37,051 nt of DNA. Source: Acidobacteriaceae bacterium. Lineage in GTDB: Bacteria; Acidobacteriota; Terriglobia; Terriglobales; Acidobacteriaceae. Each line of letters starts with the position of its first letter. Within the stretch, counting starts at the first letter, position 1. The position numbers and the translations under genes were made by a program. Positions 17,575 through 22,763 of the stretch are shown here, in pieces. A model generated the notes under the pieces. That model was given only the letters and a program-made list of their open reading frames with translations. It did no database searches and was not told the origin of the DNA. The DNA lies in NCBI GenBank assembly GCA_003171315.1, contig PMYE01000164.1, positions 1-37,051 of the forward strand. The letters run 5' to 3'.

Positions 17575-18612
17575 TCACGCGCATTCCTCCCAGCTTCCGA
17601 ACTCTCTCGCGGCGTCGGTCATCGCCTGAACATTTTCAGGCGGTGTCGTGGACATGACCAGACATCCGGGGCAAAGCACGAATCGCGCATGGCGCAGCTT
17701 GGCGGATTCGATTACCTCACGGCACTTTTCCCTGACGAAGCTGGGGGTGCCGGAATAGAGAACCGACGAAGGATCGATATTGCCAAAGACGCAGCAGCGG
17801 CCGGCAATAATTCCAAACGAGCGATCCATGTCATTGTGATGATCGAGTTCTAACACCTCCGAACCAGTGGATACCATATCTTCAATGATATGGTTTGAAC
17901 GGCCGCAAATATGAAGCGACAGAAGGCCCCCGCCGAGTTGTTCTTTATACCGCCGCTCGAAAGGTTGTGAAAATCGGCGGTACATGGCTGGTGAAATCAG
18001 CGATTCGCCCGATAGGCCATCTCCGATGGATGTGATATCTGCTCCCGCGGCAAGTTGAGCTTTTGCAAAAGCCACACCGGCAGTCCGGCAGATATCCAAT
18101 CCGGCAAAGATGTCCTCTTCAGGTTGCTCAATAAGGTCCATCATCAACATCTGCGGATCTCGCAGGAGGCCGAGCAAACCAAATGGACCTTGGTCAGCCC
18201 GCCCCATGATGGCAAAATCATCTCCTACAATGCGCCGCAGAATGCTTGTCGTTTCCAGCCACAAAGGCAAGCGTCCATCCCGCTGCGGATCGGGGATTTT
18301 AAGGTGAACGGCTTCCTGAATGGATTGAAGCGGCGACTTGACAACCCGCGCGGGCTCGTCCCCCGGGAATGTGATCGTTGCCCCCATTGCCTCGGCTAGT
18401 GTGCAGGTATCAAAGTCTATGATGATACAGTCGTACCCAAAGTCATGCGCAGTGTCCGCCAGAGCCTGTGCGGCCTTTTCGGGATGATAGGCAAACTCCT
18501 TCATGCTCATCCCAACATGCCTGGCTGCAAAGGCGAAGTTATGCTGTGCCACTGGAACCCGGTCGTGCGGCAATCCGTTAATCGCAGCAAGCGTTCGTTC
18601 TCGAGAATTCAT
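17575..18612 (-). CDS. Uroporphyrinogen decarboxylase-family (MtbA/MtaA-like) protein
   Basis: A 345-residue TIM-barrel protein of the URO-D superfamily. The N-terminus MNSRERTLAAINGLPHDRVPV is typical. Unlike true HemE it carries a zinc-site pattern seen in corrinoid:thiol methyltransferases: LSLHICGRSN (His234, Cys236) and FVLCPGC (Cys314, Cys317). It is therefore more likely a methyltransferase or related enzyme than a heme-synthesis enzyme. No corrinoid protein gene is adjacent, so its partner is unknown. ATG 18612 has GGGAGA a few bases upstream. It shares strand with the sugar porter. The space upstream, 18613-18825, contains only the tRNA-like scrap described separately. Confidence 0.87.
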   Translation of the reverse strand: MNSRERTLAAINGLPHDRVPVAQHNFAFAARHVGMSMKEFAYHPEKAAQALADTAHDFGYDCIIIDFDTCTLAEAMGATITFPGDEPARVVKSPLQSIQEAVHLKIPDPQRDGRLPLWLETTSILRRIVGDDFAIMGRADQGPFGLLGLLRDPQMLMMDLIEQPEEDIFAGLDICRTAGVAFAKAQLAAGADITSIGDGLSGESLISPAMYRRFSQPFERRYKEQLGGGLLSLHICGRSNHIIEDMVSTGSEVLELDHHNDMDRSFGIIAGRCCVFGNIDPSSVLYSGTPSFVREKCREVIESAKLRHARFVLCPGCLVMSTTPPENVQAMTDAAREFGSWEECA

Positions 18613-18757
18613 GGCTCTCCCAGTCGGAAGCTAAAGTGCAATTTTGATTCAACATGCATCATACATCCAAAACCAGAATAAACGCCCGCCAAAAAGCTTG
18701 CGAATTCCGATGTCATCCACTGACCAGCATATTGTTGAAAAAACGTTTGGTTGATGA

Positions 18758-18780
18758 TTCGAGTCCTACCGCGTCCACCA
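18758..18780 (+). other. tRNA 3'-end-like sequence (possible attachment-site scar)
   Basis: The sequence reads like the end of a tRNA: T-loop TTCGAGT, T-stem strand CCTAC, acceptor strand CGCGTCC, discriminator A and CCA. The bases before it do not pair as a T-stem and no tRNA body is present. Such scraps are left where integrative elements recombine at tRNA 3' ends. It lies 36 bp outside the IS target duplication. No second copy was noticed in the window. Confidence 0.4.
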
Positions 18781-18816
18781 TAAACACTCGGGAATTAAGA
18801 TGCGTCGGCCCTGGAG

Positions 18817-18825
18817 CACGCGCTC
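18817..18825. repeat. Target site duplication, left copy
   Basis: CACGCGCTC directly flanks the left end of the IS1-like element and is repeated exactly at 21101-21109. Nine bases is the usual size for IS1-type insertion. Confidence 0.9.
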
Positions 18826-18842
18826 GGTAGTGTCCTAATTTG
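18826..18842 (+). repeat. IS1-like terminal inverted repeat, left
   Basis: GGTAGTGTCCTAATTTG, exactly matched in reverse complement at the other end. It begins with the GGTxxTG pattern of IS1-family ends. Confidence 0.92.
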
Positions 18843-18848
18843 ATTCGC

Positions 18849-19037
18849 TTACCCGGCTAATGTGGCAAGCAACGTGCTACGAATCCATTCTGAGGCCGTC
18901 TTATCACTGGCCTTAGCTGCGTTTTCAATCGCTGTTCGTTCCTCTGGCGTGATGCGAACGCGGAGCATGACAGCCTTGGCGTTCCCATTTGGAAGCGGTG
19001 GGCGGCCGGGTTTCTTAGGCTTCGGCTGCTTCGGCAT
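18849..19037 (-). CDS. Small ribbon-helix-helix-like protein
   Basis: A 62-residue basic protein with a proline/lysine-rich start (PKQPKPKKPGRPPLPNG), then a strand (AVMLRVRITPEE) and two helices (RTAIENAAKASDKTASEWIR). This is the layout of MetJ/Arc/CopG-type DNA-binding proteins and the small regulators of mobile elements. ATG 19037 has GGGAG eight bases upstream, inside the preceding gene, which it overlaps by 23 bases. It is the third gene of the transposase operon and ends seven bases inside the left terminal repeat. An autoregulatory or accessory role is inferred from position. Confidence 0.7.
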   Translation of the reverse strand: MPKQPKPKKPGRPPLPNGNAKAVMLRVRITPEERTAIENAAKASDKTASEWIRSTLLATLAG

Positions 19038-19326
19038 CTCGGTACTCCCGTATGATGGCTGCTCTCACGGCTGTTTCTGGAGAATTGACCGGCCCTAAGT
19101 GGAGCACGGTCACATGACGCTTAGGGTTGGCCGGATCGTCTGTTTCGTGAGTCCACGCATAGACCGTGCCTGCCGTCTTGTGCTCCACCAATTCAAAGAC
19201 TTCTACCACTCCGCTCCAGACCGTCTTGCCGTCAAACTTTTCTGTCACCGGCACACTCCGCAAGTGACGGGATTCGGCCCCGTGCAGCTTGCGGATCACG
19301 TCTTGCAATTCCTCGATATAGGTCAC
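19015..19326 (-). CDS. Conserved-looking passenger protein of unknown function in IS operon
   Basis: A 103-residue acidic protein beginning MTYIEELQDVIRKLHG. I place the start at GTG 19326 because it overlaps the transposase stop as GTGA, a normal translational-coupling arrangement; the frame is open further upstream only as a shadow of the transposase. It has a helical start, then strands (KTVWSGVVEVFELVEH, GTVYAWTHE, HVTVLHLGPV) and a final helix (PETAVRAAIIREYRDA). I do not recognise a family. The match of start, overlap and strand with its neighbours indicates a real gene carried by the element. Confidence 0.72.
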   Translation of the reverse strand: MTYIEELQDVIRKLHGAESRHLRSVPVTEKFDGKTVWSGVVEVFELVEHKTAGTVYAWTHETDDPANPKRHVTVLHLGPVNSPETAVRAAIIREYRDAEAAEA

Positions 19327-20144
19327 GCCACAGCCTCCAGCAGGTCTCCTACGCTCCAGAATGAACCCTCGATACCAGCGGCCATTGCCGGAGTGCATCT
19401 CAGAGTGTTGTGCCGTTTGACGAAGTTGTAATAGGCGAAGTGAAGGCCGACAGCAGCCTCGAAATTCTCCCGTTTCTTGCTGAAAGCCAACGTCAGGCGA
19501 GTGAGCCTCCGCATGTGCAGCCGGGTAGTGGCGTTCAACCGTTCAATGTAGCTCGTCGAGATCAGTTCCCACTTTGGCCGACCGGAAACGATGATCTTCT
19601 CTGAGGAAATGACCTCTGGAGGGCTATAACGGCGATTGGGCAGTTCCTCGGAGCCGTACACCTTTACGATCTGGCCGTAATCCGCGTTGCCTGCAAACGT
19701 CTTTTCCATCGCCTGTACATAGGCGCTCAGGCCGTCCGTAGAGATTTGCACCCGGTTACGCATCCGCTTCTCAAGGTCTTTCAGAAACGCCGTTGCAGTC
19801 GTCGCGTTACGGTCGCCAACCTTGAACGCCGGAACGAGTTTGGTATCGGCATCAATGGCGCAGAACGTCCATATGTCACCAAGACTCGGATCGTCAGTAG
19901 GACGGACGCGAACCTCTTTCTTGCCGATGAATCCCCAAATTTCGTCCAGTTCTAGCCGCGTGCAAGGGAGATCGCGCATTTTAGCGTCCATGAGGGTCGT
20001 GCATCCCTGCCCAACCTTTACGCCCAGGCGCATGATCGTGTCGCGGTGAACGCCAGTGATGCGCTCAATAGAGCGAATGCTGGAACCCTCTGCCAATGCG
20101 CCGATTACTGCGATTTGCTTGTCGGTGTTGAGGACGTTTGCCAT
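19323..20144 (-). CDS. IS1-family transposase, single ORF
   Basis: A 273-residue DDE transposase. Residues 1-45 form a helix-turn-helix (KQIAVIGALAEGSSIRSIER, GVHRDTIMRL). The catalytic triad is Asp67 (LELDEIWGFIG), Asp137 (STDGLSAY) and Glu201 (SYIERLNATTR). The block after Glu201 (RRLTRLTLAFSKK...YYNFVKRH) matches the InsB pattern. No frameshift is needed, unlike classical IS1. ATG 20144 is used; seven upstream codons exist in frame but lie over the promoter. The stop overlaps the next gene as GTGA. The -10 box is so close that the message may be leaderless. Confidence 0.93.
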   Translation of the reverse strand: MANVLNTDKQIAVIGALAEGSSIRSIERITGVHRDTIMRLGVKVGQGCTTLMDAKMRDLPCTRLELDEIWGFIGKKEVRVRPTDDPSLGDIWTFCAIDADTKLVPAFKVGDRNATTATAFLKDLEKRMRNRVQISTDGLSAYVQAMEKTFAGNADYGQIVKVYGSEELPNRRYSPPEVISSEKIIVSGRPKWELISTSYIERLNATTRLHMRRLTRLTLAFSKKRENFEAAVGLHFAYYNFVKRHNTLRCTPAMAAGIEGSFWSVGDLLEAVA

Positions 20145-20153
20145 AATGTAATT

Positions 20154-20182
20154 ACTGTACCCCAATAACTATCGGTTGTCAA
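20154..20182 (-). promoter_or_regulatory. Transposase promoter
   Basis: On the minus strand TTGACA (20182-20177) is followed after exactly 17 bases by TACAGT (20159-20154). Transcription would begin about 3-5 bases before ATG 20144, giving an almost leaderless mRNA, which agrees with the lack of a ribosome binding site. Confidence 0.72.
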
Positions 20183-20199
20183 GAGGTTTTTGGGGTACA
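20156..20199. promoter_or_regulatory. Symmetric operator between divergent IS genes
   Basis: TGTACCCC (20156-20163) and GGGGTACA (20192-20199) are perfect inverted repeats; widening to 14 bases keeps 12 matches. Each arm overlaps a -10 box: TACAGT for the transposase on one side and TACAAT (20196-20201) on the passenger side. A protein bound to both arms would shut both promoters. The ribbon-helix-helix protein of the same element is a candidate binder (inference). Confidence 0.55.
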
Positions 20200-20236
20200 A
20201 TTTTTGCTATAGAAACACCGATCCGGCAAACAGACT

Positions 20237-21073
20237 ATGACGATCATGCCAATACAACAGGTGATGACGATGGCGAGCGTGATACTTTCCCAGGGCCAAC
20301 CAAACAAACCGGATATTCCAGCCCTAACCGAGCGTCTTATCCAGTTGACTCGTGCGGTCGATTTTTGGAACCGCTGGATGATCGCTGGACTTGCAGTAGC
20401 GGCTATGGCTGCTCTCTGGCTGGCGCTAACCACAAGGCTTACGATTGTCAGGCAGAAGGAACTCACCCTGAAACAGGGCGAACTCGATGCCGCGAAAGAA
20501 GGACAATTGCAACTCCAGTTGTCGTCAACCGAGACAAGGCGGATTGCACTTGTAAACCGCATCATAGATATTTTCGGTCCAAGACAGTTGACCGCGCAGC
20601 AATCGACGGAGGTCGTGAAAAAGCTGGCCGGACTGAGAGGCATAAAAGTTGATATATACGTATTTAAGCTCGGAAGTCCGTACAATCCCACCGAATTCAG
20701 CGACGACTCGGCACTTGGAATGGCTTTCGTGCGCACCCTCAAAAATGCGGGTCTAGACGCTGAGGGCTGGCTGCTAGATTCCTGCCAGGATTCGGGAGCT
20801 TCTAATCTAGTTGTAGGGATAGTCGGGAACAACCCAGAGGACCTGACGACCGCCAAACGGGTTCTCGACTCGCTCCCAACTGAAATCGGGGTATGGCCTA
20901 AAGTTGAGCCAAATTTCTTTCCTATGACTTGCGCACAGTTCTCGAATCTTGATCCATCCGCGCCAAATAAGCGCACCCATGAAGCGAAGATAAGCATCGC
21001 AATTGGAAGGAAAATTACTCCAATTCTGACGCGCGAGATGTTGGAACCACCCGACGAAGGGAACATACCGTGA
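20237..21073 (+). CDS. Membrane-anchored coiled-coil passenger protein of the IS
   Basis: A 278-residue protein read opposite to the transposase and ending 11 bp before the right terminal repeat. It has one membrane segment at about 45-66 (WMIAGLAVAAMAALWLAL), a coiled-coil-like charged stretch at about 70-100 (RQKELTLKQGELDAAKEG), and an alpha/beta domain from about 115 (RQLTAQQSTEVVKKLAGLRG, then KVDIYVF, ALGMAFVRTLKNAGLDAEGW). I know this general layout from membrane-anchored proteins of unknown function, but I cannot name a family. ATG 20237 is the first start; ATG 20246 is possible. It is cargo with no evident role in transposition. Confidence 0.75.
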   Translation: MTIMPIQQVMTMASVILSQGQPNKPDIPALTERLIQLTRAVDFWNRWMIAGLAVAAMAALWLALTTRLTIVRQKELTLKQGELDAAKEGQLQLQLSSTETRRIALVNRIIDIFGPRQLTAQQSTEVVKKLAGLRGIKVDIYVFKLGSPYNPTEFSDDSALGMAFVRTLKNAGLDAEGWLLDSCQDSGASNLVVGIVGNNPEDLTTAKRVLDSLPTEIGVWPKVEPNFFPMTCAQFSNLDPSAPNKRTHEAKISIAIGRKITPILTREMLEPPDEGNIP

Positions 21074-21083
21074 CTCCGTGCGG

Positions 21084-21100
21084 CAAATTAGGACACTACC
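21084..21100 (-). repeat. IS1-like terminal inverted repeat, right
   Basis: The reverse complement is GGTAGTGTCCTAATTTG, identical to the left end over all 17 bases. The sequences diverge immediately inside. Confidence 0.92.
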
Positions 21101-21109
21101 CACGCGCTC
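21101..21109. repeat. Target site duplication, right copy
   Basis: CACGCGCTC, identical to 18817-18825, immediately outside the right inverted repeat. Confidence 0.9.
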
Positions 21110-21115
21110 AACGCC

Positions 21116-21144
21116 TTGCATTTCTCCCGATTCCGCTATATAAC
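21116..21144 (+). promoter_or_regulatory. Probable promoter of the intact GH39 gene
   Basis: TTGCAT (21116-21121), a 17-base spacer and TATAAC (21139-21144) form a reasonable sigma-70-type promoter about 70 bases upstream of the start codon. It begins only seven bases after the IS target duplication, so the insertion removed or displaced anything that acted further upstream. Confidence 0.5.
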
Positions 21145-21221
21145 CTCAACGTGAGTTGTACAATTAGCCGCCCAGCAGTTTTCATCGTTTCTGTCGTTCG
21201 CGCCGCAAAGGAGCCTTACAG

Positions 21222-22763
21222 ATGAAGAGTTTTTCCGGTTTTTCTCTATTACTCTTGCTGCCTTGCTTAGCTGCATTCGCCCAAAGCCCTGCGCGGGAGG
21301 GTTTCCGCTCCCTGCAGGTGGACGCCGGCAAAGTAATCGGCGAGATACGCTCGTTTCAGGGGTTGAACGGCGCGCCCGAGCCGGTAATGGCGGGACTTCC
21401 CAGTCTCGTACAGCAATACAGGGATCTGCACGTCAGCCAGGTTCGCACCCACGATTTGATGGGTCCCGCGGATATCGATTCGAAGTTCGTATACACGAAC
21501 GAGGAATTGTCCGACCTGATTCCCGATCCCGCGCAGCGCGCCGGGGTGGTGAAGGCGGGCAATGCGAGCATCATCTTCCCCGACATGAGCGCGGACCCCG
21601 AAAAGCCCGAGAGCTACAATTTCGGTCCGAGCGATAAGGCGCTCGCCGCCATTCGAGCCAGCGGCGCAGAAATTTATTATCGCGTGGGACGCAGTTATGG
21701 CGCCGACTTTAGCCCGCCAGCCGATTTCGACAAGTATGCCAACGTGGTGAAGCACGTCGCCATGCATTACAACCAGGGCTGGGCAAACGGGTTCCACTAC
21801 AACATCCGCTACTGGGAGTTCTGGAATGAGCCGGAGGGATTCTGGACTGGAACTCCGGAGCAATTTTATTCTCTGTACGAGAAAACGGCGCGGGCCTTGA
21901 AGTCAACCGATCCTACGCTCAAAGTGGGCGGCAATGGTCAGGAAGATCCTTACGGCGATACACCTTACCGCGAGGGCTTTTTCGATTACTGCGCCGCGCA
22001 CAAGTTGCCGTTGGACTTTTACTCCTGGCACCACTACGCCAGCACCGAAGACCCCTACGATGCGGTTCGGCTCGCCAGGCAGATACGCGGCGTCCTCGAT
22101 GCACACGGGTTTCCCAAAGCGGAGAGCATTCTCTCGGAATGGAATTTAAAGGCCGATTATACGAAAGCCGCAAAGGCCGAACTTGAAAGCGCGCACAACG
22201 CCGCTTACGTCGGCGCGGTTCTGTGTTACGGTCAGGACGCTCCCCTCGATCAAGCGCATTTTTATCGCGGCGACGCGGCCTGGATGGGACTCTTCGATTT
22301 GAAAGGACAGTACTACAAGACTGCTTATACGTTCGAGGCCATGGGAAAGATGCTGGATACGCCGCAGAGACTTGCGGTCAAGGGCACAGATACGTTCGGC
22401 TTCGCTGCGCTTGCGGGCCGCTCCACGGATGGCAAGACCGTACAGATATTCATCGCCAATTACGCGATTCCGGAGAGCATACTTGCGAAGATGCATACTC
22501 CCAGCGTCCAGAAACCCGATTCGCGGGGCCATATATGGCTTCCACACCGCACAGATATCGTTTACCGCGATAACACCGGTTACGATCTCACGGTGAGCAA
22601 TTTACCCTGGGGCAAAAAGGCGTTCAGTCTCAAGCGTTACCGGCTAAGCGCGACCCAGAACTTGGAGCTGGTCGAGAGTAGGTCCGGCAACGGCGGCAGT
22701 GTGAGATTGTCCCATCCGCTGCCCACCGATACCGTCGAGTTGATCGTTCTGGAGCGCAAGTAA
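21222..22763 (+). CDS. Secreted GH39-like glycosidase
   Basis: A 513-residue exported enzyme of clan GH-A, closest to GH39 (beta-xylosidase-type) by pattern. A signal peptide covers residues 1-20 (LLLLLPCLAAFAQ). The barrel contains YWEFWNEPEGFW with acid/base Glu203, and ESILSEWNLK with nucleophile Glu306. A beta-sandwich at the end (NTGYDLTVSNLPW, SLKRYRLS, DTVELIVLERK) is normal for GH39. AAAGGAG lies about eight bases before ATG 21222. A truncated, stop-containing copy lies at 15632-15958, the two being separated by the porter, the methyltransferase and the IS. The 275 bp after the stop, before the convergent gene end at 23039, hold nothing I can assign. Confidence 0.9.
   Translation: MKSFSGFSLLLLLPCLAAFAQSPAREGFRSLQVDAGKVIGEIRSFQGLNGAPEPVMAGLPSLVQQYRDLHVSQVRTHDLMGPADIDSKFVYTNEELSDLIPDPAQRAGVVKAGNASIIFPDMSADPEKPESYNFGPSDKALAAIRASGAEIYYRVGRSYGADFSPPADFDKYANVVKHVAMHYNQGWANGFHYNIRYWEFWNEPEGFWTGTPEQFYSLYEKTARALKSTDPTLKVGGNGQEDPYGDTPYREGFFDYCAAHKLPLDFYSWHHYASTEDPYDAVRLARQIRGVLDAHGFPKAESILSEWNLKADYTKAAKAELESAHNAAYVGAVLCYGQDAPLDQAHFYRGDAAWMGLFDLKGQYYKTAYTFEAMGKMLDTPQRLAVKGTDTFGFAALAGRSTDGKTVQIFIANYAIPESILAKMHTPSVQKPDSRGHIWLPHRTDIVYRDNTGYDLTVSNLPWGKKAFSLKRYRLSATQNLELVESRSGNGGSVRLSHPLPTDTVELIVLERK

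Follow-up and report, generated by a model that had tools for sequence, protein, structure and literature searches.

A 37,051-nucleotide stretch of DNA from an Acidobacteriaceae bacterium, hereafter the window (contig PMYE01000164.1, positions 1 to 37,051, of assembly GCA_003171315.1, which comprises 3.29 Mb in 204 contigs), carries at positions 18826-21100 an insertion sequence (IS)-like element of 2,275 bp, with four intact open reading frames (ORFs) inside it according to the ORF list of the window. Its two ends are identical inverted repeats (17/17), no longer perfect inverted repeat is present within 18500-21500, and a 9-bp target duplication, CACGCGCTC, abuts the element on both sides (Table 1). 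Read in the orientation of the transposase, the order is end, a divergent gene for a 278-residue protein, a divergent promoter and operator region, the transposase gene, a gene for a 103-residue protein (family C4), a gene for a ribbon-helix-helix (RHH) protein, and end. The transposase and C4 genes overlap by 4 bp and the C4 and RHH genes by 23 bp; alternative starts would give a 103-residue protein extended to 127 residues (upstream ATG) and a transposase of 280 residues (upstream TTG). With at most one mismatch the 17-bp end occurs at four sites in the genome, arranged as two facing pairs, and the reversed pattern used as a control occurs nowhere, so a chance origin of the ends was rejected. 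A composite transposon was rejected likewise, there being one end pair at the site, two in the genome and no flanking IS copies. The perfect ends, the perfect duplication and the four intact genes with a single transposase among them, as listed in a preliminary description of this DNA, are therefore confirmed, as is a size about three times that of classical IS1, which measures about 770 bp.

Table 1. Coordinates of the element, its genes and its borders in the window.
Feature	Position	Strand	Basis or remark
Target-site duplication, copy 1, 9 bp	18817-18825		Direct repeat, 9/9
Terminal inverted repeat GGTAGTGTCCTAATTTG, beyond the 3' end of the transposase operon	18826-18842	+	17/17; same end in relatives
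RHH protein, 62 aa, family C5, probable repressor	18849-19037	-	Pfam NikA-like; strand MLRVRI
103-aa accessory protein C4 (probable role)	19015-19326	-	Start overlaps transposase stop, end overlaps RHH start
IS1-related single-ORF DDE transposase, 273 aa	19323-20144	-	Pfam DDE_Tnp_IS1; DDE conserved
Putative sigma-70-like promoter of the transposase operon, TTGACA-17-TACAGT	20154-20182	-	Pattern and recurrence in relatives
Putative inverted-repeat operator over the divergent promoter region	20156-20199		Arms TGTACCCCAA... / ...TTGGGGTACA; 14 nt, 93%
Cargo: divergent, predicted membrane-anchored protein, 278 aa	20237-21073	+	ORF; G061 orthologue between two ends; dN/dS
Terminal inverted repeat adjoining the cargo stop codon	21084-21100	-	17/17
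Target-site duplication, copy 2	21101-21109		Direct repeat, 9/9

The transposase matches the Pfam family DDE_Tnp_IS1 above its cut-off (36.1 bits against 24.1) and the NCBIfam IS1 equivalog model below its cut-off (68.5 bits against 100). The putative catalytic residues D67, D137 and E201 are kept in 79, 78 and 79 of 79 aligned relatives, respectively. The 9-bp duplication and the GGT... ends agree with the IS1 family, in which duplications of 8-9 bp are found; the frameshifted InsA/InsB' layout of classical IS1 is absent, the transposase being a single ORF in which about 48 residues separate the two IS1-like blocks defined by the Pfam and NCBIfam matches and the C-terminal region is longer. 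Several distant plasmid relatives are annotated as 'IS1 family transposase'. Membership of IS1595 was ruled out, as no IS1595-type DDE model appears among the Pfam or NCBIfam matches of the transposase at E ≤ 1. The transposase domain thus places the element near IS1, and two strict IS1 features, a score above the NCBIfam cut-off and the two-ORF frameshift, are lacking. Single-ORF subgroups of IS1 exist, and ISfinder lists ISMhu11 members of up to several kb, so that long members may already be catalogued; ISMhu11 was named in no paper of the literature searched. The element has the DDE_Tnp_IS1 domain, GGT-type ends and 8-9 bp duplication in common with ISMhu11-like members and differs from them in the sub-cut-off NCBIfam score, in the spacer and C-terminal extension, and in the extra DNA found in every complete member.

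Matches to the transposase at E ≤ 1e-20 occurred in 74 of 199 genomes searched, about 60 of these places being fetched, and at 72 loci of a species collection, the best-matching named loci being Acidobacteriaceae assemblies. After nine duplicates were left out, 125 loci were examined (L numbers below; genomes carry G numbers, G000 being that of the window). An end pair was obtained at 87 of them, two of which (L036 and L064) were dropped as spurious, while the other 38 had no acceptable pair because of a contig edge, a partial transposase or the lack of a match. The resulting 85 complete elements are all distinct in sequence, and 77 have an exact duplication, of 8 bp in 71 cases and 9 bp in six. 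In a strict set that required at least 14 matching end positions of 17 and an exact duplication (n = 71), the duplication is 8 bp in 66 elements and 9 bp in five, and lengths range from 1,766 to 6,267 bp with a median of 2,699 bp. A bare IS, with a transposase and two ends and nothing more, would take up about 0.95 kb, and all of the 85 elements exceed this size, the shortest measuring 1,692 bp, with the proviso that short bare copies, if collapsed in draft assemblies, could have escaped the survey. Beyond transposase, C4 and RHH, an additional ORF of at least 100 residues, scored or hand-picked, is present in 79 of the 85. The suggestion that this is a transporter-type IS was accordingly borne out by relatives with the same ends at other sites.

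The lineage was found in Acidobacteria, Verrucomicrobia, Nitrospirae and Proteobacteria. The transposase is present in 23 of 72,556 plasmid records, in each at less than 60% identity, and in one of 50,697 phage records. Distant forms with 17/17 ends and an 8-bp duplication reside on plasmids of Mesorhizobium loti (CP050295; 3,370 bp) and Hoeflea (NZ_CP011481; 4,224 bp); a Methylocapsa plasmid element has 16/17 ends, and no duplication was found there. On an Acidiphilium plasmid a RES/Xre gene pair adjoins the transposase and was considered as cargo; just the final 18 bp of RES overlap the element's end, so the pair lies outside the element.

The additional DNA occupies a constant place and differs in content from element to element. 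Among the 30 close elements (complete, with a transposase that shares at least 65% of its residues with that of the window), 24 have a divergent gene in the same slot (hand-picked intact ORFs). In 13 pairs of these 24 the transposases are at least 80% identical; the cargo proteins of such pairs are related at E < 1e-5 in four cases and over more than 60% of their length in two, and C4 in the same comparison has a median identity of 67%. The cargo proteins of L004 and L037, whose transposases are 93.7% identical at the amino acid level, are not detectably related. The 278-residue protein of the window has one hydrophobic segment, a long helix and an alpha/beta-looking C-terminal part. It belongs to a type A, also seen in L045, L053 and L063, with hydrophobic segment, coiled coil and alpha/beta-looking part, within which likeness is weak (20-31%) apart from one N-terminal stretch. 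Type B joins a hydrophobic segment and a coiled coil to a domain with the motifs RAW, NxGxxPA and GxxxYxD, at a mean column identity of 17%. The type A cargos of L045 (3207-3956) and L063 (2972-3826) are 63% identical over the first quarter alone, that is, the membrane and coiled-coil N-terminus; this shared N-terminus joined to a different remainder suggests domain exchange within the cargo.

A search of 119 genomes gave two matches to the window cargo in other genomes, G061 and G058. The G061 orthologue is 60% identical over 278 residues, and a ratio of nonsynonymous to synonymous substitution rates (dN/dS) of 0.217, at dS 1.3, indicates that purifying selection maintains the protein; the G058 match is a C-terminal homologue around which no ends were recognised. 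Trained in part on these elements, a type-B profile matched 95 times, in 59 of the 79 genus genomes scanned, and for 15 of the matches an end (one mismatch allowed) lies no more than 500 bp away; at least one further type-B match, L272, has a 15/17 end 30 bp away. On the sequence evidence, the true cargo is the divergent, membrane-anchored 278-residue protein, and the slot that holds it is exchangeable. The preliminary description, which had named this protein together with the C4 and RHH pair as cargo, was right in outline: the membrane protein stands, and the pair belongs to the mobility module described below. Its expectation of the same cargo at other sites failed, since the slot is constant and the gene is not; the membrane protein varies or is replaced, and relatives of it also occur in chromosomes without recognised ends.

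Four cassettes (L170, L202, L203 and L207) have a cargo gene between the ends and no transposase; L202, L203 and L207 came from a search for the end sequence in 80 genus genomes. The remaining one, L170, carries the G061 orthologue of the window cargo in 954 bp, with ends of 15/17 and 16/17 and no exact duplication; transposase, C4 and RHH are absent. L202 (861 bp, 17/17 ends) and L203 (1,669 bp) both have an exact 8-bp duplication, the former around one 229-residue membrane protein and the latter around one 417-residue protein and a C4 remnant, while L207 (1,075 bp) encodes a 284-residue protein and has no duplication. Three gene-less 120-bp copies in G051 (L204, L205 and L206), one with a 9-bp duplication, are, judged by their shared ends, miniature inverted-repeat transposable elements (MITEs) of the same lineage, and a deleted element of 1,339 bp in G171 keeps C4 and a transposase remnant. 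At L271 (1306-3762, in G031), similar but different ends, GGTACTGTCTTAAATGT / GGTACTGTCTGAAATCT, with an 8-bp duplication surround a type-B gene together with an end like those of the present lineage; the elements may be nested.

The C4 and RHH genes, by contrast with the cargo, are present in all 30 close elements. A C4 profile had 18 matches in 198 genomes, and 17 have a transposase, the remnant of one or an end as neighbour; the single match outside such a context, in G140, is partial (E 4e-6), and none was found in 72,556 plasmid records. This strict linkage, the covariation of the RHH strand with the operator described below, and the four cassettes, which retain of the pair just the partial C4 remnant in one, contradict the proposal that the pair is cargo. 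We infer that transposase, C4 and RHH constitute one overlapping operon, a mobility module. The two small genes lie far apart and on opposite strands in the verrucomicrobial elements L067, L073, L075 and L088, and C4 occurs without a window-type RHH protein in L066, L070 and L076; they are thus separable parts and not a fixed gene pair. Nine of 13 elements without C4 encode another small basic protein or domain (cluster C8) with GG(L/I)KGG- and RW-like motifs, a likeness judged by eye, one such protein in a plasmid element being annotated as 'histone H1'. An AlphaFold model of C4 consists of a helix, four strands and a helix (predicted local distance difference test score, pLDDT, 93.3). Foldseek returned nothing for it at E ≤ 0.001 (best 0.28), and the best VIA Z-scores were 5.7 for a designed beta protein and 4.9 for Dcp1 and uracil-glycosylase inhibitor, in the range of common arrangements; C4 matched no family in Pfam, NCBIfam or PHROGs, and neither a toxin family nor a toxin fold. 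Its strict linkage, and this only, points to a probable role as accessory to transposition or as its co-regulator. The RHH protein scores above the Pfam NikA-like cut-off (32.2 bits against 27) and resembles RelB/TacA weakly, below the Pfam and NCBIfam cut-offs.

The putative promoter of the transposase lies inside the inverted repeat TGTACCCCAA ... TTGGGGTACA. Its pattern alone is at chance level (two sites found, 1.5 expected), and its position and form recur in relatives. The same layout recurs in close elements with a variable half-site: GGGGTACA, GGAGTACA, GTAGTACA, GTTATACA, GTAATACA/G or GTATTACA. Since the left arm is poor or missing in L004, L046 and L052, the right half-site was compared, in 29 of the 30 close elements; L084, where the scan found no promoter, was omitted. 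RHH repressors read DNA with their strand, and in this set strand and half-site change together: LRxR accompanies GGGGTACA in 8/8 elements, VIQVRF accompanies GTAGTACA in 2/2, on separate branches, VALR/VVVR goes with GTTATACA in 2/2, VPVR with GTAATAC(A/G) or GTATTACA in 15/15, and VQVR, in L044, with GTAATACA in one. Strand and operator are correlated when transposase distance is accounted for (partial Mantel r 0.79, 0/20,000 permutations, n = 29), and C4 and operator are not (r 0.001, 9,551/20,000). The clearest case is again L004 and L037, whose nearly identical transposases are accompanied by different operators and different RHH strands, each strand matching its own operator. On the transposase tree, RHH strand and operator require 10 changes each.

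Because its strand covaries with the inverted-repeat operator, the RHH protein is very probably a repressor of the transposase promoter. Several details speak against this reading. The operator octamers were partly hand-curated, and L039, which alone combines GGAGTACA with strand IQAR, falls outside both main classes. Weak correlations link the operator to the RHH helices as well (r 0.30) and, after accounting for the RHH strand, to the transposase (r 0.31). Just two independent pairs fall on supported branches, both in agreement (p 0.5; five pairs on all branches), which leaves the tree-based test underpowered. The predicted reading of an operator by the strand is shared with RHH autorepressors such as Arc, CopG and MetJ; the difference is that here it would be tied to an IS1-type transposase promoter, IS1 itself using InsA.

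In the 50 more distant elements, from which 84 cargo ORFs were hand-picked, the cargo includes GmrSD-type restriction proteins (L066 and L088), XRE/M78 proteins (L117, L143 and L159), an AAA_21 ATPase (L119), an nSTAND ATPase with a Clp protease (L156), BRO-N proteins (L067 and L130), DUF433 (L073), DUF3800 (L126) and a thymidylate kinase (L085); 15 of 30 distant cargo proteins scanned singly had no Pfam match at E ≤ 0.01. Long matches to PADLOC models were obtained for HEC-06/GmrSD (L066 and L088), RmrA (L117 and L159), PD-Lambda-2_B (L143), HEC-04 (L119) and PDC-S13 (L130). Four of 10 proteins picked as likely candidates (in L070, L156, L121 and L126) had no PADLOC match at 1e-8, and 36 ORFs of the close group gave weak matches alone (best E 0.0019). 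The 84 cargo ORFs matched 313 models and 84 flanking control ORFs 137; the flanking ORFs are longer, counts are per model and not per gene, and some flanking matches are strong (mad3 4e-104, DinG 8e-106, BrxHI 2e-72), so we claim no enrichment. A common cargo cluster lies beside the transposase in L120, L121, L124, L137, L147 and L148, its member in L121 matching Pfam Proteasome.

Taken together, these results are best explained, in our view with good confidence, by a transporter IS of an IS1-related lineage in which a mobility module is combined with exchangeable cargo. The DDE transposase would recognise the 17-bp ends and insert the entire element, with duplication of 8 or 9 bp of target; the anatomy is seen directly, and catalysis is presumed from it. 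The RHH protein would bind the inverted repeat bracketing the divergent promoter region, repress the promoter and thereby limit transposition and perhaps also expression of the cargo, and C4 would help or regulate transposition. The divergent gene beyond the operator would be the exchangeable cargo, a membrane protein here and other membrane or defence-like genes in relatives. In two relatives, exact duplications show that cargo alone between the same ends has been inserted as a transposase-less cassette, presumably by movement in trans. Of the possible roles of the cargo, one at the envelope of the host cell, such as defence against phages or exclusion, seems the likeliest, and for the window protein we weakly favour such a function in membrane-level defence or exclusion.

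A number of points weigh against this interpretation. Movement itself was not observed, transposition being deduced from ends and duplications, and an empty target site was not shown: a uroporphyrinogen-decarboxylase-like gene was not found in about 1.5 kb on each side in six relatives of the GH39-like neighbour gene (L281-L286), so there was no empty site to compare. The end finder credited a matching duplication, so that the weak ends of distant members may be wrong and need care, against which the strict set guards partly. In six of the 85 complete elements (L035, L072, L084, L092, L138 and L152) no additional ORF, whether scored or hand-picked, reached 100 residues. Of the 95 type-B matches, 80 have no end with at most one mismatch within 500 bp, so type B seems to be mainly a chromosomal family of which the elements carry some members. 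As to the function of the cargo, the window protein reaches the cut-off of no Pfam family and matches no PHROGs family, and its fold model, built from four sequences, is poor (pLDDT 44).

An ordinary IS1-like element that trapped neighbouring genes once, by chance, would account for cargo that varies, for cargo relatives that are ordinary chromosomal genes and for the six elements without a further ORF. We regard such chance capture as very improbable, because all 85 complete elements are longer than a bare IS, 79 have an extra ORF, the same slot, with the operator at its border, is filled in 24 of 30 close elements, and four cassettes retain a cargo gene without a transposase. The fixed position of the membrane protein in those 24 elements would equally suit a part of the transposition machinery, concerned with target choice or transposition immunity; this too is very unlikely, since undetectably related proteins occupy the slot beside nearly identical transposases, such proteins are retained in transposase-less cassettes, and relatives exist without recognised ends.

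The preliminary description also raised the possibility of an addiction module, and two small overlapping genes with the RHH gene second, as well as the sub-cut-off resemblance to RelB/TacA, are what a type II toxin-antitoxin pair would look like. We consider this unlikely, if less so than the two readings above: for C4 no match to a toxin family or fold was found, covariation ties the RHH strand to the operator of the transposase (though antitoxins autoregulate too), and the genes lie apart in the four verrucomicrobial elements and C4 occurs without a window-type RHH protein in three others. That the element is a shuttle for defence genes, its membrane protein being itself an anti-phage factor, is a possibility to which we give some weight while thinking it doubtful. 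The RmrA-, PD-Lambda-2_B-, HEC-04-, HEC-06/GmrSD- and PDC-S13-like proteins of distant relatives argue for it, as do purifying selection on the cargo and its high divergence from element to element; the close group, however, has no strong PADLOC match, flanking ORFs match PADLOC as well, some strongly, which leaves any enrichment suggestive, and several distant cargos, such as the thymidylate kinase and the proteasome-like protein, are not defence-like.

Transporter IS (tIS), for example of the IS1595 family, likewise hold passenger genes inside the ends of a single IS, and the window element in all likelihood works in the same way: it is a single element with its own ends and a passenger gene inside, and its movement as a unit is deduced from the duplications. 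It differs from the IS1595-family examples in its IS1-type transposase, its probable repressor and operator pair, its single exchangeable slot and its distribution over several phyla. The concept is in print in PMC9330008 and PMC7986276, where Siguier 2009 is among the references, and the term mobile insertion cassette (MIC) also already appears in print. The cassettes L170, L202, L203 and L207 resemble MICs in having ends and cargo without a transposase, whereas the window element has its own transposase between its ends. No paper describing the lineage was found in the literature searched, which did not extend to subscription reviews, so its absence from print is not proven.

The genome of the window contains a second element, L004 (2226-5525; G000:C3:8725-12024), of 3,300 bp with an 8-bp duplication. 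Its cargo, a type-B membrane protein with an additional 279-residue ORF, is unlike that of the window element, and its RHH and operator type is also different. The preliminary description read the perfect duplication in the window as a sign of recent movement; yet within this genome the transposase of the closest other copy, which carries different cargo, is 77% identical, and a third transposase (G000:C72:16439-17239), for which no ends were found, is 44% identical, so nothing points to recent copying there. To the right of the element lies a GH39-like gene (21222-22763) with a 72% identical paralogue at G000:C153. About 45 bp to the left, at 18756-18780 (within 18747-18781), is a sequence like a tRNA 3' end with CCA, GATTCGAGTCCTACCGCGTCCACCA, which is possibly a tRNA relic or an old attachment site; ARAGORN detected no tRNA in the window, and the tRNA-tail-like 25-mer is single in the genome.

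Because related elements carry different genes in the same place, the element appears to be a compact vehicle for exchangeable genes. Most IS are thought to carry just the functions for their own movement, and here nearly every complete member carries, and exchanges, something else. It is conceivable, though we hold it as a tentative and rather doubtful proposal, that the lineage is a minimal platform for defence cassettes of one to a few genes, combining a mobility module under repressor and operator control with an exchangeable slot, with cargo-only cassettes moved in trans, and that the membrane-anchored acidobacterial coiled-coil cargos, that of the window included, form an undescribed envelope family for anti-phage defence or exclusion. 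The lineage offers a compact, testable model for the way in which individual genes, possibly of defence, become mobile; its 17-bp ends together with the C4 marker gene provide a handle in the search for undiscovered cargo, including transposase-less cassettes.

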